NCBI RefSeq assembly: GCF_012911975.1
Contig: NZ_SMDQ01000026.1
Span: 1 to 64,000 of the forward strand
DNA length: 64,000 bases
Origin: Nodosilinea sp. P-1105
GTDB taxonomy: Bacteria > Cyanobacteriota > Cyanobacteriia > Phormidesmidales > Phormidesmidaceae
Direction: 5' to 3'
Within the stretch, counting starts at the first letter, position 1. Each line of letters begins with the position of its first letter. A program made the translations under genes and the position numbers. The notes beneath the pieces were generated by a model, which was not told the DNA's origin, ran no database searches, and worked only from the letters and a program-made list of their open reading frames with translations. This document shows, one piece after another, positions 33,433 through 40,810 of the stretch.

Positions 33433-34137
33433 ATGGCATGGCCTCTGGCTACGGACCTGGCTACGGAGTACGTCTGCAGTCGGGCCATTAACCTGTACAA
33501 AACCCCGGACCTAGGTGGGTTAGTCACCCAGACGGCCCCTGGGCGGCATTTGCGGCGGTGGTCCATGGTCCCAACTGAATCATCCCAGATCGCCCAGGCT
33601 GTGCGTCTGTGTGAGGATGGTTACCTGGGTTGGATTAGTCAAGCGGACTGGTATAGCCTGGGCCAAGCCCCATCTCCCTACATACCGCCAGTGCTTGATC
33701 GGGCCGCCATTGAACCGCGACTAACCGAGGCGATCGCCTTTACCCACCGGGCCATGGCCCAGCCCAACCGGTATCTGTGGGGGGGCACCGTTGGCCCCGA
33801 TTACGATTGCTCTGGGCTGATGCAAGCCGCCTTTGGGGCGGTAGGTATTCAGCTACCCCGCGATTCGTACCAGCAAGAAGCCTTCACTCAGCCGATCCCC
33901 TGGGATGATCTACAGCCCGGCGATTTAGTCTTTTTTGGCACTCCAGAGCGTACTAAGCATGTGGGATTGTACCTGGGGGCAGGTAACTATATTCATAGCT
34001 CTGGGATTGATCAAGGCCGCAATGGCATCGGCATCGACTCGCTGACAGACTTGTCCGATCCCGTTAGTGCTGCTTACCAGGCTCAACAACGTCGCCCAGG
34101 CCGAGTAATGGAGAGCTACTGTCCCCCAGTGGTATAG
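33433..34137 (+). CDS. NlpC/P60 (C40) peptidoglycan endopeptidase
   Basis: A 234-residue peptidase. The C-terminal NlpC/P60 domain has Cys126 in DYDCSGLMQAAFGAVGIQLPR, His176 in TKHVGLYLG and His188 in YIHSSG. Residues about 20-80 look like one SH3b domain (TAPGRHLRRWSMV, GYLGWISQADW), the layout of the cyanobacterial gamma-D-glutamyl-diaminopimelate endopeptidases of known structure. No signal peptide is evident, as in those proteins. It cuts cell-wall peptides, probably in turnover or septum work. It follows a membrane gene after three bases. Confidence 0.9.
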   Translation: MAWPLATDLATEYVCSRAINLYKTPDLGGLVTQTAPGRHLRRWSMVPTESSQIAQAVRLCEDGYLGWISQADWYSLGQAPSPYIPPVLDRAAIEPRLTEAIAFTHRAMAQPNRYLWGGTVGPDYDCSGLMQAAFGAVGIQLPRDSYQQEAFTQPIPWDDLQPGDLVFFGTPERTKHVGLYLGAGNYIHSSGIDQGRNGIGIDSLTDLSDPVSAAYQAQQRRPGRVMESYCPPVV

Positions 34138-34174
34138 TCCCTGGACTTATACCACTCCGAACGGGAGACTGCAC

Positions 34175-35443
34175 TCAGTCGTCCTCGAACACGCTCTGGA
34201 AAAATTCGATCGTGTCTTTGAGGGCCGCTATAAAGGCGTCGATTTCGGCCTTGGTATTGTAAAAGTAGAGGCTGGCCCGCGCAGTGGAGTCTACCCCTAG
34301 CAGCCGATGTAGGGGTTGGGTGCAGTGGTGACCTGAGCGAATGGCAATACCCGATTGATCCAACAGGGTGGACAAATCTTGGGCATGGACCCCCTCCACG
34401 GTAAAGGTGGCTAGGGCCGCTCGCCCACTACCGTCCGCTTGGGGCAGGGGACCGTACAGCTTGACTTCAGGAATGGTCTGGATTTGTTGGTACAGATAGG
34501 CGGTCAGTTCGTGCTCGTAGGTGGCGATTTTATCCATACCGATGGACGATAAATAGTCGACGGCGGCCCCCAGGGCGATCGCCTCGGCAATGGCTGGGGT
34601 ACCCGCCTCAAACTTGTGGGGCAACTCGGCATAGGTGGCATGGTCCAGAAACACATCGGCAATCATCTCGCCGCCGCCCAGGAAGGGGGGCATGGCCTCC
34701 AGCAGATCGAGCTTGCCGTACAAAAAGCCAATGCCGGTAGGACCACACATTTTATGGCCCGAGGCCACAAACCAGTCACAGCCCATGGCCGGTAGGTTCA
34801 AGGGCAGATGCGGGGCACTCTGGCAGCCGTCGATTAGCACCCTAGCCCCATGGCGGTGGGCGATGGCGATGATCTCCTCGACGGGGTTAAGGCTACCCAG
34901 GGTGTTAGACACATGGTTCACCGCCACCAGCCTGGTCCTGTCGTTGACCAACTCACGATAATGATCTAAGTCAAAGCCCTGATTGGCTGAAAGCTCCACA
35001 AACTTCAGCACCGCCCCCGTCCGCTGGGCCACAAATTGCCAGGGGACCAGGTTACTGTGGTGTTCCATCACCGACAGCAGAATTTCATCCCCCGGCTGCA
35101 GGGTGGTCATGCCCCAGCTATAAGCCACCAGATTAATGGCTTCGCTGGCGTTACGAGTAAAGACAATTTCGTTGCGGCTAGTGGCATTGACAAAGGCCGC
35201 CACCTTGTCCCGCGCCCCTTCGTAGGCATCAGTGGCCCGGGCACTGAGGCAGTGGATGCCCCGGTGTACATTGGCATTGTCCTGCTGATAGTAGTGCTGC
35301 AACGCCTCTAGCACCGCCTTGGGCTTTTGGGACGTGGCGGCATTATCAAAATACACTAGGGGGTGACCGTGGACCTCCTGGTGCAGAATTGGGAAGTCGG
35401 CGCGGACCTTGGCAGCAAGAGTGAGTTCCTGGGCAACGGTCAT
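34175..35443 (-). CDS. sufS: Cysteine desulfurase SufS
   Basis: About 422 residues from ATG 35443. The open frame extends to 35560, but the extra residues are Pro-Ile-His-type repeats encoded by a 15-base tandem array, so they are not chosen. The PLP lysine is in [17 protein letters not shown], and the active Cys is in [11 protein letters not shown], the type II (SufS) pattern with RSGHHC. It mobilises sulfur from cysteine for the SufBCD scaffold. Last gene of the ftrC-sufBCDS run. Confidence 0.95.
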
Positions 35444-35547
35444 GGGGGTGGATGGGTAGGGGGTGGATGGGTAGGGGGTGGATGGGAGGGGGTGGATGGG
35501 TAGGGGGTGGATGGGTAGGGGGTGGATGGGTAGGGGGTGGATGGGTA
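35444..35547. repeat. 15-base tandem array between sufD and sufS
   Basis: Seven copies of GGGGGTGGATGGGTA, one of them a base short, so the frame read through it changes from Pro-Ser-Thr-Pro-Tyr to Pro-Ile-His-Pro-Leu repeats. It lies immediately upstream of the sufS start on the minus strand and so separates sufS from its ribosome binding region. Confidence 0.9.
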
Positions 35548-35548
35548 G

Positions 35549-35570
35549 GGGCAGACCCAAGTGTCTGCCC
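35549..35570. repeat. REP-like hairpin, copy 1 (8-bp stem, 6-nt loop)
   Basis: GGGCAGAC, a six-base loop, then GTCTGCCC: a perfect palindrome overlapping the sufD stop. The same 22-nt design occurs at 46273, 47007 and 47049. Confidence 0.8.
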
Positions 35571-36919
35571 TAGGCCCCCGTCCATTGAGCAAGGATTTTG
35601 GTCAGACGCGATCGCAGGGTAGCCACCGGAATCGTCTCTAACATCTCCATAGCAAAAGCATAGATCAATAAGCGCTGGGCCTGGGGGGCACTAATGCCGC
35701 GACTTTGTAGATAGAAAATTTCGTCGGCCTGGAGTTGACTGACGGTGGCTCCGTGGGCGCACTTGACATTATCGGCCACAATTTCCAGCTGGGGCTTGGT
35801 ATCTATCCGCGCCTTATCCGACAACAGTAAGTTGCGGTTGAGCTGACTAGCGTTGGTTTCTTGGGCAGCCTGGGCCACCACCATGCGCCCGTTAAAGACG
35901 CTGTGGGCTTTGTCATCCACGATCGCTTTGTGCACCTGGTCCACGGTGCCGTAGGGATGACTAAGGGCCACCAGGCTGTGGGTATCAGCGCGCTGGGAGG
36001 CGGTAATCGCCCCCAACCCATACAGCTTGGTGGTGGTTTGCTCGCCGGTTTGGTAAATTTCCCAGTTGTGGCGACTGAGCCTAGCCCCAAAGTCCACAGC
36101 AGTGCCAATATATTGACTATCTCGGGCTTGGGTCACCACGGTCTTAGCCATGTGAAACGTGCCACTGCCCTCTCGTTGGAGGCGACTGTGGGTGATCTGG
36201 GCATTGGCCTCTAGCCAAATTTCAGTGACCGCATTGGTGAAATAAGCCGTACTGGCATGGCCCCAGTAGTCTTCGATCAGAGTGAGGGCGCTACTCGTTT
36301 CTGCCACCACCAAACAGCGGGGTTGAGCCAGAACTGGGGTATCTGCGGCCTCAGCTCCGTAGAGTATCTGCAACGGCGTTTCCATCACCCCACTAGGGGG
36401 CAGCCACACCACCACCGCATCCTGAAAGCCAACGGTATTGAGGGCCGTGAACACATCGTGGTGGCCACTGGCCTGGCCCAAGCGCTGCACCAGTTTTTCC
36501 GACCAGATGGGGTGATTCTGGAGATCCCTCAAACTCCCGACGATCGCCCCCTGGGGCAGTCCCCCTAGTTGGGAAAGCTCTGGGCTCACTTGCCCGTTCA
36601 CCACCACTACCTGAGCCCCAGCGGTTTCGGGCAAACGCCGGGCTTCGATATCTGTAGTGTCCCCCTGCGGGCCATCGGCACAGGCAAACGCGATGTCCAG
36701 CATGGGGGACAGATCGGTAAAGCGCCAGTCTTCCTGGCGAGTATGGGGGAAGGTTTGCTCTTTCAACAAGGCCTCAGCCCGCGATCGCAACTCGGGCAGG
36801 GCCAGATCTGCGGGTACGCCCCCCTTAACCGTCTGAATCAACCCCTTCAGGTAGGTATCTCGTTGCTCGGTACCACGAGCCATGGGGGCAACTACATTCT
36901 CTGAAACTGAACGTGTCAT
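35570..36919 (-). CDS. sufD: Iron-sulfur cluster assembly protein SufD
   Basis: A 449-residue member of the SufBD family, the beta-helix subunit of the SufBC2D scaffold. The N-terminal helical part includes LKEQTFPHTRQEDWRFTDL, the conserved stretch that distinguishes SufD. The C-terminal beta-helix contains SDKARIDTKPQLEIVADNVKCAHGATVSQ with the DEIFYLQSRGIS motif. Its ATG overlaps the sufC stop by one base (TAATG), implying coupled translation. Confidence 0.95.
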   Translation of the reverse strand: MTRSVSENVVAPMARGTEQRDTYLKGLIQTVKGGVPADLALPELRSRAEALLKEQTFPHTRQEDWRFTDLSPMLDIAFACADGPQGDTTDIEARRLPETAGAQVVVVNGQVSPELSQLGGLPQGAIVGSLRDLQNHPIWSEKLVQRLGQASGHHDVFTALNTVGFQDAVVVWLPPSGVMETPLQILYGAEAADTPVLAQPRCLVVAETSSALTLIEDYWGHASTAYFTNAVTEIWLEANAQITHSRLQREGSGTFHMAKTVVTQARDSQYIGTAVDFGARLSRHNWEIYQTGEQTTTKLYGLGAITASQRADTHSLVALSHPYGTVDQVHKAIVDDKAHSVFNGRMVVAQAAQETNASQLNRNLLLSDKARIDTKPQLEIVADNVKCAHGATVSQLQADEIFYLQSRGISAPQAQRLLIYAFAMEMLETIPVATLRSRLTKILAQWTGA

Positions 36920-37707
36920 TATGCCGTCACCTCCGCTCGATGCTCATCCATAATCCACTCATAGCCGCGAGCTTCTAGGTCATGGGCCAGGGACTTATCC
37001 CCGGTGGTGATAATGCGGCCATCGGCCATCACATGGACATAGTCCGGCTGGATGTAGTTGAGCAGCCGCTGGTAGTGGGTAATCAGCACCACGGCATTGT
37101 CTGGGTTAGCCAGCTGGTTAACGCCACCAGCCACGGTCTTCAGGGCGTCAATGTCGAGGCCTGAGTCAGTTTCGTCCAGAATCGCCAGGATTGGTTCTAA
37201 CAGGGCCATTTGCAAAATTTCGTTGCGCTTTTTCTCGCCGCCGGAAAACCCTTCGTTGACGCTGCGGTCCAAAAAGGAGGCGTCCATTTTTACCACATCC
37301 AGCTTCTCTTCGATCAGGTCATCGAAATCAAAGACGTCAATTTCATCTTCGCCCTGGCCTTTGCGGTGGGCGTTGTAGGCCACTCGCAAGAAATCCCGGT
37401 TGCTGACACCGGGAATTTCTAGGGGATACTGAAAGGCCAGAAATATCCCGGCGGTGGCGCGCTCGTGAGGCTCTAGCTCCAATAGGTCTTTGCCCTGAAA
37501 CTGAATGTCGCCAGTGGTCACCTCGTAGTCAGGGTGACCGGCCAACACTTTGGAAAAGGTGCTTTTACCAGAACCGTTCAGGCCCATGATGGCGTGAATT
37601 TCTCCGGCTTTGACCTCCAGGTTCAGGCCTTTGAGGATTTCGGTGCCGTCAACGGTGGCATGGAGGTTGCGCACCATGAGAATTGTTTTGCTGTTTGGGT
37701 TAATCAT
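36919..37707 (-). CDS. sufC: ATPase SufC
   Basis: A 262-residue ABC-type ATPase of the Suf scaffold. Walker [15 protein letters not shown], signature [14 protein letters not shown] and Walker [13 protein letters not shown] are present. SufC drives conformational change of SufBD for cluster assembly. An internal Met at residue 11 ([11 protein letters not shown]) is an alternative start. It overlaps sufD by one base, and a 274-bp gap with small hairpins separates it from sufB. Confidence 0.95.
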
Positions 37708-37981: not shown

Positions 37982-39421
37982 CTACCCCACCGTATTCTCC
38001 AGCTTCAGGGCCAGCAGCTTGTCCGCCTCGGCGGCAAACTCCATGGGCAGCTTGTTGAACACATCCCGGCAAAAGCCACTGATGATCATTGACACCGCAT
38101 CTTCGGGGGAAATCCCCCGCTGGGCAAAGTAGAACAGCTGGTCTTCCCCAATTTTGGAGGTAGAAGCTTCGTGTTCCACCTGGGCGGTACTATTTTGCAC
38201 CTGGATGTAGGGGAAGGTGTTGGCGCTGGAGGTATCGCCAATTAACATCGAGTCGCACTGGGAGTAGTTACGGGCACCAGCCGCTTTTGGTCCCATTTTC
38301 ACCAGCCCCCGGTAGCTATTTTTCGACTTGGCCGCCGAAATCCCCTTAGAAATAATGGTGCTTTTGGTGTTTTTGCCCACATGCACCATTTTGGTGCCAG
38401 TGTCGGCCTGTTGCAGGTTGTTGGTCAGCGCCACCGAGTAGAACTCACCCACGGAATTGTCACCCACCAGAACGCAACTGGGGTACTTCCAGGTGATAGC
38501 AGAGCCGGTTTCCACCTGGGTCCAGGAAATTTTAGAGTTCTTACCGGCGCAGAGCCCCCGCTTGGTGACGAAGTTGTAAATGCCGCCTTTGCCGTTTTCG
38601 TCCCCGGCGAACCAGTTTTGTACGGTGGAGTAGTTGATGGCGGCGTCATCTAGGGCCACCAGTTCAACGATCGCCGCATGGAGCTGGTTACTGTCGTACA
38701 TGGGGGCGGTACAGCCCTCTAAATAGGTCACTGAACTGCCGGATTCGGCCACAATCAAGGTGCGCTCGAACTGCCCGGACTCACCGTTGTTAATCCGAAA
38801 GTAGGTGGACAGATCCATCGGGCACTGGGTGTCTTTGGGAATGTAGACAAAGGAGCCGTCGCTAAACACAGCCGAATTGAGGGCCGCGAAGTAGTTGTCA
38901 CCAATGGGTACCACCGTTCCCAGGTACTTTTCCACCAGATCAGGATGCTCTTGCAGGGCCTCCGAAATCGAGCAGAAGATTACCCCAGATTCGGCCAGCT
39001 TTTCTTTGTAAGTGGTGGCCACCGAGACGCTGTCAAAGATGGCATCCACAGCCACATTGGCCAGCCGTTTTTGCTCGGATAGGGGAATACCTAGCTTTTC
39101 AAAGGTGTCGAGCAGCGTCGGATCAACCTCATCCAGGCTGCCCAGCTTTTTGTCTTTGGCCTTGGGCGCCGAATAGTAAACGATGTTTTGGTAGTCAATG
39201 GGAGGATAGTTGACGTTGGGCCAAGTGGGCTCGGCCATGGTCAGCCACTTCCGGTAGGCTTTGAGCCGGAACTCCAGCATGAACTCCGGTTCGTTCTTTT
39301 TGGCGGAAATCATCCGCACCACGTCTTCGCTAAGGCCGCGAGGAATGGCATCGGCCTCAATGTCGGTCTTGAAGCCGTACTTATAGGGCTGAGTAACCAG
39401 GGATTGAACAGAAGTACTCAT
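37982..39421 (-). CDS. sufB: Iron-sulfur cluster scaffold SufB
   Basis: A 479-residue SufB, the core scaffold subunit. Conserved stretches include [20 protein letters not shown], the [22 protein letters not shown] region, and [20 protein letters not shown] near the C-terminus. The catalytic Cys-containing [12 protein letters not shown] region follows. First suf structural gene after ftrC. A 26-bp palindrome lies just upstream. Confidence 0.95.
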
Positions 39422-39474: not shown

Positions 39475-39500
39475 CTCTAAAGGGCGATCGCCCTTTAGAG
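39475..39500. repeat. 26-bp perfect palindrome centred on a HIP1 octamer
   Basis: CTCTAAAGG-GCGATCGC-CCTTTAGAG reads identically on both strands with GCGATCGC at the centre. It lies seven bases before the ftrC stop on the sequence and 53 bases upstream of sufB, in the ftrC-sufB gap. In RNA it would give an 11- to 12-bp stem with almost no loop. Confidence 0.8.
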
Positions 39501-39507
39501 CCAAAGC

Positions 39508-39867
39508 CTAATATTTATTGGTTTCAGCACGAATGGTGTCAAAGGAAATGTCCTGCTGCTCCCCGGCAAAGGGGTTATCAGGGGTGAGAAACAGCATACA
39601 GTGGCACTCTTTGCGCTCCTGCATAGGCACGCAGGGACAGTTCCAGTAGATGGTTTTGACCTCGGCCTCCTTATCTTCGTAGTGACGGCAGGGACATAAG
39701 GGCGAACCGTAGTCATCCTTATGCTTGGCCAACCCCTCGAGCACCACGGCGGTAACCCCTGGATCGGCACAGAAGTAGGTACCAGTGCGCTTCGCATAAC
39801 TTTGGGCGAAGTTGCGCATCAGCTCTAGGTTCTTTTCGGAAGCCTGGGTGGTTTTGTTATCAGTCAT
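39508..39867 (-). CDS. ftrC: Ferredoxin-thioredoxin reductase catalytic chain
   Basis: A 119-residue beta subunit of FTR, which passes electrons from ferredoxin to thioredoxin through a [4Fe-4S] cluster and a redox disulfide. All three CxC motifs are present: CPC (in SPLCPCRHY), CPC (in YWNCPCVPM) and CHC (in KECHCMLF), with the extra Cys in YFCADPG. The variable chain ftrV is not in the window. Its upstream region carries two SufR-type operators shared with sufR, and sufB follows on the same strand after 86 bp. Confidence 0.95.
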
Positions 39868-39913
39868 TACTCAGGATGTGGCTACACAGCCCACTAATTC
39901 TATACAATTAAAG

Positions 39914-39927
39914 CAACATTTAAGTTG
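39914..39927. promoter_or_regulatory. SufR operator, site 1
   Basis: CAAC-ATTTAA-GTTG fits exactly the CAAC-N6-GTTG inverted repeat described for SufR in Synechocystis. It lies 47 bases upstream of the ftrC start. Confidence 0.85.
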
Positions 39928-39952
39928 TCTAACTGATCTTAGGTTAGTTTAA

Positions 39953-39966
39953 CAACACGAGTGTTG
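39953..39966. promoter_or_regulatory. SufR operator, site 2
   Basis: CAAC-ACGAGT-GTTG, a second exact CAAC-N6-GTTG site 25 bases after the first, between ftrC and sufR. Two sites in this intergenic region match the published pattern of suf repression and sufR autoregulation. Confidence 0.85.
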
Positions 39967-40147
39967 TCAAAGTTAATAGCGAGTTGATCAAGCCAGGGAC
40001 TGATGGTTGCGATCGCACCTATCGTCACTGCAACTTGTCACCGCAACTTGTCACCGCAGCATCTCCATTGAGCTAAGCCACCCCAGCTTATCTGCTTGCT
40101 ACCATCCGCCTGTTTAATCCATGACAATTAGTTGGGCCAACGCCATG

Positions 40148-40810
40148 ACCTCTGTGCAGCAACCCTCCACCGGCACCAAAGACGATATTTTGACTTACCT
40201 GCTGAAGCAGGGAGAAGCCACGGCCCAAGGGTTGGCCACCCATTTTGAGGTCAGTGCCCAAGCCATTCGCCGTCACCTGAAAGACCTGGAGGCGGAAGCG
40301 CTGATTGAGCATCGAGCGGTGCAGGAAGGGATGGGACGCCCCAACCATATCTATCAACTCAGTGCCAAGGGGCGCGATCGCTTTCCGGCCCAGTATGACG
40401 AGTTCGCGATTTCCCTGCTAGATACCCTGGCGGAAACCGTGGGCCAAGACCAGGTGGGGACAATCCTGCGCAAACAGTGGGAGCGGAAAGCCCTGGAGTA
40501 TCGCGATCGCGTCGGTACGGGTAGTCTGGCGGAGCGGGTGGCTAATTTGGTGAAGCTGCGCCAGGCAGAAGGGTACATGGCTGAATGGCACGAGGTGCCT
40601 GCTGACGATGACCGCTGCGACCCCGGTCCCTGCTACGTTATTACCGAATACAACTGTGCCATTTCCCATATCGCCGAGTCCTTTCCCAGCGTCTGTGGCC
40701 ACGAACTGGAGATGTTTCAGGTGGCCCTAGCGGACTGCTTGGTGCAGCGCACCCACTGGATTGTCCAGGGCGAGCATCGCTGCGGCTATTTGGTGAAAAA
40801 GCAGAGTTAG
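40148..40810 (+). CDS. sufR: Transcriptional repressor SufR
   Basis: About 220 residues from ATG 40148 (another ATG lies at 40121). An N-terminal DeoR-like winged helix (ATAQGLATHFEVSAQAIRRHLK) is followed by a cluster-binding C-terminus with the exact C-x12-C-x13-C-x14-C pattern (NCAISHIAE... VCGHE ... DCLVQRT ... RCGYLV). With a bound [4Fe-4S] cluster SufR represses sufBCDS and itself. It is divergent from ftrC-sufBCDS over two CAAC-N6-GTTG sites. Confidence 0.95.
   Translation, partial: TSVQQPSTGTKDDILTYLLKQGEATAQGLATHFEVSAQAIRRHLKDLEAEALIEHRAVQEGMGRPNHIYQLSAKGRDRFPAQYDEFAISLLDTLAETVGQDQVGTILRKQWERKALEYRDRVGTGSLAERVANLVKLRQAEGYMAEWHEVPADDDRCDPGPCYVITEYNCAISHIAESFPSVCGHELEMFQVALADCLVQRTHWIVQGEHRCGYLVKKQS

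Follow-up and report, generated by a model that had tools for sequence, protein, structure and literature searches.

In strain PCC 6803, SufR in the [4Fe-4S] 2+ state binds CAAC-N6-GTTG and represses sufBCDS as well as sufR, binding more weakly upon reduction (PMC13421787). The suf region of this strain resembles the locus described below in its divergent sufR, in the CAAC-N6-GTTG operators between sufR and suf, and in a SufR acting as repressor and autoregulator (PMC13421787, PMC7058544, PMC4755962); it differs in that no ftrC lies between sufR and sufB (PMC2662882). In Synechococcus elongatus PCC 7942/6301 the order is the same as here, sufR-ftrC-sufBCDS, and is reported to be co-transcribed and SufR-regulated (PMC13421787, PMC2662882). 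For Synechococcus 6301, ftrC was located between sufR and sufB, and an RNA element of two stem-loops was predicted there (PMC2662882, 2009). For PCC 7942, ftrC is listed as a SufR target co-transcribed with suf, and the neighbourhood is shown across cyanobacteria (PMC13421787, 2026); the sources cited for ftrC and SufR in PCC 7942 are RegPrecise, Vijayan 2011 and a 2025 preprint, and the available main text of Vijayan 2011 names neither ftrC nor suf. The location of ftrC within a SufR-controlled suf unit is already in print (PMC2662882, 2009; PMC13421787, 2026). Nothing of principle separates PCC 7942/6301 from the present locus, except that the window genome belongs to another lineage, with Nodosilinea and similar cyanobacteria as its closest named relatives.

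The window (the whole stretch of 64,000 nucleotides analysed here) harbors a sufR that is divergent from a run of ftrC, sufB, sufC, sufD and a sufS-like ORF (Table 1). The gap between sufR and ftrC measures 253 bp (39868-40120), that between ftrC and sufB 86 bp and that between sufB and sufC 274 bp. A first-pass annotation of this DNA had made ftrC the first gene of the suf run and had placed two exact CAAC-N6-GTTG sites between sufR and ftrC; gene order and family matches bear out the former (sufS being named by eye), and the latter is correct in coordinates and content. The two sites are 39 bp apart, start to start, and the gap contains no third exact one. Both Met1 (40121) and Met9 (40145) are possible starts of sufR, the alignments of many relatives beginning at residue 5 or 9. 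Four cysteines of SufR (179, 192, 206 and 221) are conserved in 102-103 of 103 aligned rows and are all present in the window protein; the [4Fe-4S] cluster of PCC 6803 SufR reportedly has three ligands. FtrC contains CPC, CPC and CHC motifs (Cys 58, 60, 77, 79, 88 and 90), which we take to be the FTR cluster and active-site cysteines, and is the single PF02943 match in the whole Nodosilinea genome. As ftrV is found on another contig of the same genome, only the catalytic FTR subunit is part of the suf unit.

Table 1. Features of the suf region (window coordinates) and loci with extended SufR-type sites in other genomes.
Feature	Position or locus	Strand	Basis
sufR ([4Fe-4S] repressor of suf operon)	40121..40810	+	TIGR02702 SufR_cyano, 311.7 bits (cut-off 178.8)
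sufR-proximal SufR-type site CAACACGAGTGTTG	39953..39966	.	exact CAAC-N6-GTTG match; position conserved in relatives
ftrC-proximal SufR-type site CAACATTTAAGTTG	39914..39927	.	exact CAAC-N6-GTTG match; position conserved in relatives
candidate -10 of ftrC promoter, TATAGA	39899..39904	-	by eye; 9 bp downstream of ftrC-proximal site; tentative
ftrC, ferredoxin-thioredoxin reductase catalytic subunit, first gene of unit	39508..39867	-	PF02943 (FeThRed_B domain), E 5.5e-43
perfect 26-bp palindrome centred on GCGATCGC	39475..39500	.	13-bp arms, ftrC-sufB gap
sufB	37982..39421	-	TIGR01980 and PRK11814 above cut-off
sufC	36919..37707	-	TIGR01978 above cut-off
sufD	35570..36919	-	TIGR01981 above cut-off
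sufS-like ORF	34175..35560	-	named by eye from ORF sequence; true start probably downstream of listed TTG
chlB / nifJ / Grx4 extended-site loci	L337, L344, L345, L347, L350, L353		

CAAC-N6-GTTG occurs 3 times in the window against 1.27 expected; in the whole 6.0-Mb genome it is found at 91 places and the reversed pattern at 118. Because the genome has fewer of them than of the reversed control, single sites are uninformative and were rejected as regulon evidence. Two sites in the 253-bp gap were reached by only 2 of 20,000 dinucleotide shuffles, and the pair inside the sufR-ftrC gap is significant, beyond chance. Sites paired with 10-40 bp between them occur once genome-wide, and so does the reversed pair, so that the pair is no proof unless its place is taken into account. 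Among 194 genomes, 48 have the double site and 15, the window genome included, have the reversed one. The double-site places listed for these genomes number 51 (including that of G124, a genome without a SufR match), and 46 are at sufR or sufB. It is this place, and not mere occurrence, that sets the real double site apart from the reversed one. On the sufR side of the window locus (40031-40056) there are two tandem CAACTTGTCACCG copies, each starting with a CAAC half-site.

Conservation is a stronger argument than the shuffle statistics for the sites being real. Two samples were compared. The named sample comprises the best 80 of 424 loci by SufR similarity and, being so chosen, leans to the window's own lineage; the phylum-wide draw is fairer and comprises 194 genomes, 82 of them above the SufR cut-off and 80 of these with an ftrC match (G141 and G155 have none). 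The named loci divide into 72 with sufR-ftrC and 8 with sufR-sufB. At least one exact site is found in 71/72 and 8/8, respectively (79/80, against 0/80 for the reversed pattern), and two or more in 65/72 and 7/8. At the named sufR-ftrC loci, 61 of 70 pairs of neighboring sites have their starts spaced by 38-42 bp, and the flanks are kept (TAAAR or TTAR before, YTTAA or TCAAAGT after) in 95 aligned loci, which are not independent. At four loci (L049, L050, L054, L055) the gap between sufR and ftrC has a third CAAC-N6-GTTG, 25 bp away from the second. In the phylum-wide draw, at least one exact site lies upstream of ftrC or sufB in 74 of the 80 genomes and the reversed pattern in none; the six without an exact CAAC-N6-GTTG are four genomes of family f20 with sufR-ftrC-sufB and two others.

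The palindromes might instead be part of an RNA element ("cluster 80") rather than protein operators, given that two stem-loops 17 nt apart were predicted here in three cyanobacteria (PMC2662882). This is extremely unlikely. It is the CAAC/GTTG sequence that is kept, the reversed palindrome, equally able to pair, being found in 0/80 gaps of the named loci, and in family f13 the sites stand before separated genes. Moreover, the CIRCE operator was caught by the same prediction method and, because the paper shows likewise for CIRCE, we think that its stem-loops are the two SufR operators (PMC2662882).

The first-pass annotation had further held that the sites do not lie directly before sufB, and had named a separate strong promoter of sufB with SufR sites of its own as part of the contrary evidence. 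No exact CAAC-N6-GTTG is present in the window's ftrC-sufB gap, in its sufB-sufC gap or at 34100-36000, and the ftrC-sufB gap is likewise without one in 65 of the 69 named relatives in which it can be read and in 18/18 sampled genomes having sufR-ftrC-sufB. Since the sites lie before ftrC and are conserved at the sufR promoter region, with none before sufB, ftrC is best read as the first gene of the SufR unit; the 86-bp gap free of exact sites is only suggestive of co-transcription of ftrC with suf in this organism. The four exceptions belong to one Laspinema-like lineage (L078, L081, L092, L095) and have CAAC-N6-GTTG in an ftrC-sufB gap of ~250 bp, with the outer 8 bases the same in all four loci and the inner 6 varying. 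Given this site, sufB may be separately controlled in these loci.

A consensus promoter scan found no promoter, which is compatible with both sites serving sufR autoregulation only, a separate promoter driving ftrC-sufBCDS. We regard this as very improbable on three grounds. An AATTAAA block beside the ftrC-proximal site is conserved in 95 aligned loci, forming with the TATA-like sequence a conserved block on the ftrC side of that site; in f13, where sufB is apart from sufR, sufB has its own site in 6/6 genomes and is thus a target; and in PCC 6803 sufB is constitutively high without SufR (PMC4182526).

The palindrome of the ftrC-sufB gap (Table 1) is the sole one with arms of at least 9 among 69 GCGATCGC in the window. 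It was rejected as a terminator or conserved attenuator: neither a terminator-like site nor a T run was found at its position, the folding of the stretch is no better than that of shuffles (z -0.30), and it is not conserved in relatives, whose ftrC-sufB gaps contain a perfect arm of at least 7 in 12 of 72 readable cases, the longest being 9 vs. 13 in the window. Because it is not conserved, it is probably outside the mechanism; its 13-bp arms could lower read-through into sufB.

The arrangement is thus very probably a SufR-repressed divergent control region driving sufR and a single unit, ftrC-sufBCDS. Holo-SufR ([4Fe-4S]) would bind both CAAC-N6-GTTG operators, which are spaced by about four helical turns in the sufR-ftrC gap, and the bound protein would keep sufR on one side and ftrC-sufBCDS, as one unit, on the other from being transcribed. 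Loss or reduction of the clusters (under iron shortage, or oxidative or copper stress) would lift repression, and FtrC would then be produced alongside the machinery responsible for inserting its cluster. Since SufR is a repressor, a shortage of Fe-S clusters should raise ftrC. The proposal of the first-pass annotation that ftrC is under Fe-S status control gains support from the sites before ftrC, their conservation and the lack of an exact site before sufB. That SufR binds here, in which direction it acts and that the unit is co-transcribed we infer for this organism from the DNA sequence, with the repressor chemistry and co-transcription carried over from the work on PCC 6803 and PCC 7942.

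A synteny survey, which had been proposed as a check, found the order sufR-ftrC-sufB in 18 of the 80 sampled genomes with sufR and ftrC, spread over 9 of 26 families. In the remaining 62 genomes ftrC occurs elsewhere only, never beside sufR, so the linkage is not required for FTR function. None of the 63 ftrC copies not beside sufR in these 80 genomes has an exact site in the 560 bp upstream (0/63), a count that is independent of motif matrix and shuffle type. The best matrix score of an isolated ftrC is -1.5, whereas suf regions that have a site score 19.1 or more and shuffled controls reach 10.9 at most; the matrix derives from the very suf sites under comparison, and the shuffles are plain, not dinucleotide-preserving. 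In G027, which has two ftrC copies (L116, L199), the suf-unit copy has one exact site upstream and the other copy has none. The converse is seen in family f13 (6 genomes; L325, L327, L329, L330, L332, L334), where the suf genes are split, with sufR, sufB and a SufC-like gene apart: sufB keeps at least one site in 6/6, sufR keeps one in 3/3 checked, and the SufC-like gene, which in one genome a family search confirmed to be SufC, has a site upstream in 6/6. Scattered suf genes keep their sites and isolated ftrC copies have none; hence the operator travels with the suf genes, not with ftrC. Judged by exact sites, ftrC appears to be SufR-controlled only where it lies inside the suf unit. In Trichodesmium, iron addition is reported to lower suf genes and raise an FTR gene (PMC12090762), a response that would be compatible with an unlinked ftrC.

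On a SufB tree, the order label needs 4 changes, at least 2 of them forced by well-supported branches, vs. 16.5 for shuffled labels, with 25 of 76 inner branches open and a root for drawing only. The tree is compatible with either an ancestral sufR-ftrC-sufB order or more than one gain. In a SufB from outside the window (G133:C46:4913-7432, partly held in L245), the family matches fall in two pieces of a single uninterrupted open frame of 857 residues, pointing to an intein or another insertion in frame.

The same data bear on whether ftrC is a mere passenger that came to stand between operators and sufB and is expressed from the promoter there, its regulation having no selective value. The site-free isolated copies, the 62 genomes with ftrC elsewhere only and the unlinked partner gene ftrV in this genome all agree with this account, and part of the gene-order conservation may indeed be inheritance of a neutral neighbor. 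However, the order is kept across the 9 families, changes rarely on the SufB tree compared with shuffled labels (although shared ancestry alone clusters labels too), and is retained in family f20 while the operator differs. We consider a selectively neutral ftrC possible but rather doubtful.

Family f20 consists of small genomes, some without SufR and FTR, for which reason we call it picocyanobacteria-like, a designation by inference. It shares with the window locus the sufR-ftrC-sufB order and a divergent SufR homologue; it differs in that ACGAAAC-N6-GTTTCGT replaces CAAC-N6-GTTG and helix-turn-helix residues are changed. In the first draw, the f20 genomes with ftrC keep the order in 4/4, have CAAC-N6-GTTG in 0/4 and have ACGAAAC-N6-GTTTCGT in the gap in 4/4; L175-L178 are among the sufR-ftrC gaps that carry it. 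Of 121 f20 genomes, 50 have the exact longer palindrome, at 60 places in all, 44 within 600 bp upstream of sufR and 16 elsewhere. None was found in the 31 f20 genomes without a SufR match, and among the 90 with a match (81 above cut-off) it lies upstream in 44 and not in 46. At the 30 best-scoring f20 SufR loci, the shorter GAAAC-N6-GTTTC lies within 500 bp upstream in 24, the reversed pattern and CAAC-N6-GTTG in 0/30 each, and ftrC adjoins sufR in 22.

The protein differs as well, as a comparison of 34 f20 rows (32 genomes, G175 and G181 twice) with 69 other SufR (excluding those of 7 genomes with unlinked sufB) indicates. Residue 46 is P in 64/69 others and V in 34/34 f20 rows, residue 54 K in 68/69 and R in 34/34, residue 55 D in 65/69 and S in 31/34, residue 75 Q in 59/69 and S in 32/34, and residue 78 Y in 68/69 and W in 34/34; numbering follows the window protein, in which position 46 is A and position 75 is N. 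Residues beyond these five also differ in f20. Following the usual winged-helix pattern, we place these five in the probable recognition helix and wing, and the changed residues are probably those with which SufR reads DNA. As f20 is one clade, the change of operator and protein counts as a single event.

At 13 of the 16 f20 palindromes away from sufR (L299-L305, L311-L316), a sigma-70 family gene has its likely start ~11-16 bp downstream and diverges from a gene for a pseudouridine synthase; the other 3 are not so placed, one being near a contig end. Both sigma proteins tested (2/2) match TIGR02997 above cut-off, and "group 2" is used here as a label that we assume for this factor. No account of the f20 operator or of the sigma-factor site was found in the published papers searched.

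Outside f20, the extended pattern WARCAAC-N6-GTTGYYWAA was run over the 194 genomes, and chosen patterns were followed in 13 genomes, with 16 loci read. Among the places followed, extended sites precede the SufC-like genes of f13, sufD (G105), chlB (G080, G105), the gene of a Grx4 monothiol glutaredoxin beside a BolA-like gene, and nifJ (G076, G093). The assignments of sufC, sufD, chlB and Grx4 are above family cut-offs, BolA is below its cut-off and nifJ was read as a fragment. In PCC 6803, grxC rises with suf under copper (PMC4182526). Other places read showed no Fe-S gene: that of G066, shared with G002, gave weak phosphoketolase matches below cut-off, and that of G080 (L352) a gene without any match. 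It seems likely from these patterns that the SufR code was rewritten in f20, the operator changing with the same 6-bp spacer, the recognition helix and wing changing too and the gene order being kept; a sigma-70 gene would have gained the operator in part of f20, and elsewhere the sites would reach other Fe-S genes (chlB, nifJ, Grx4) by lineage.

Two results deserve further work: the dependence of ftrC control on gene position, and the switch of operator. Lineages in which ftrC is linked to suf and those in which it is not can serve as natural controls for each other; under iron or oxidative stress, ftrC is predicted to respond together with suf in one set but not in the other. The switch offers a clean test of SufR specificity and, if the reading is true, a sigma factor would be under Fe-S control in part of f20. 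FTR passes photosynthetic electrons to thioredoxin, so switching carbon fixation, and its catalytic subunit is a [4Fe-4S] enzyme. Tying this subunit to the regulator of Fe-S assembly would couple light signalling to cluster supply.
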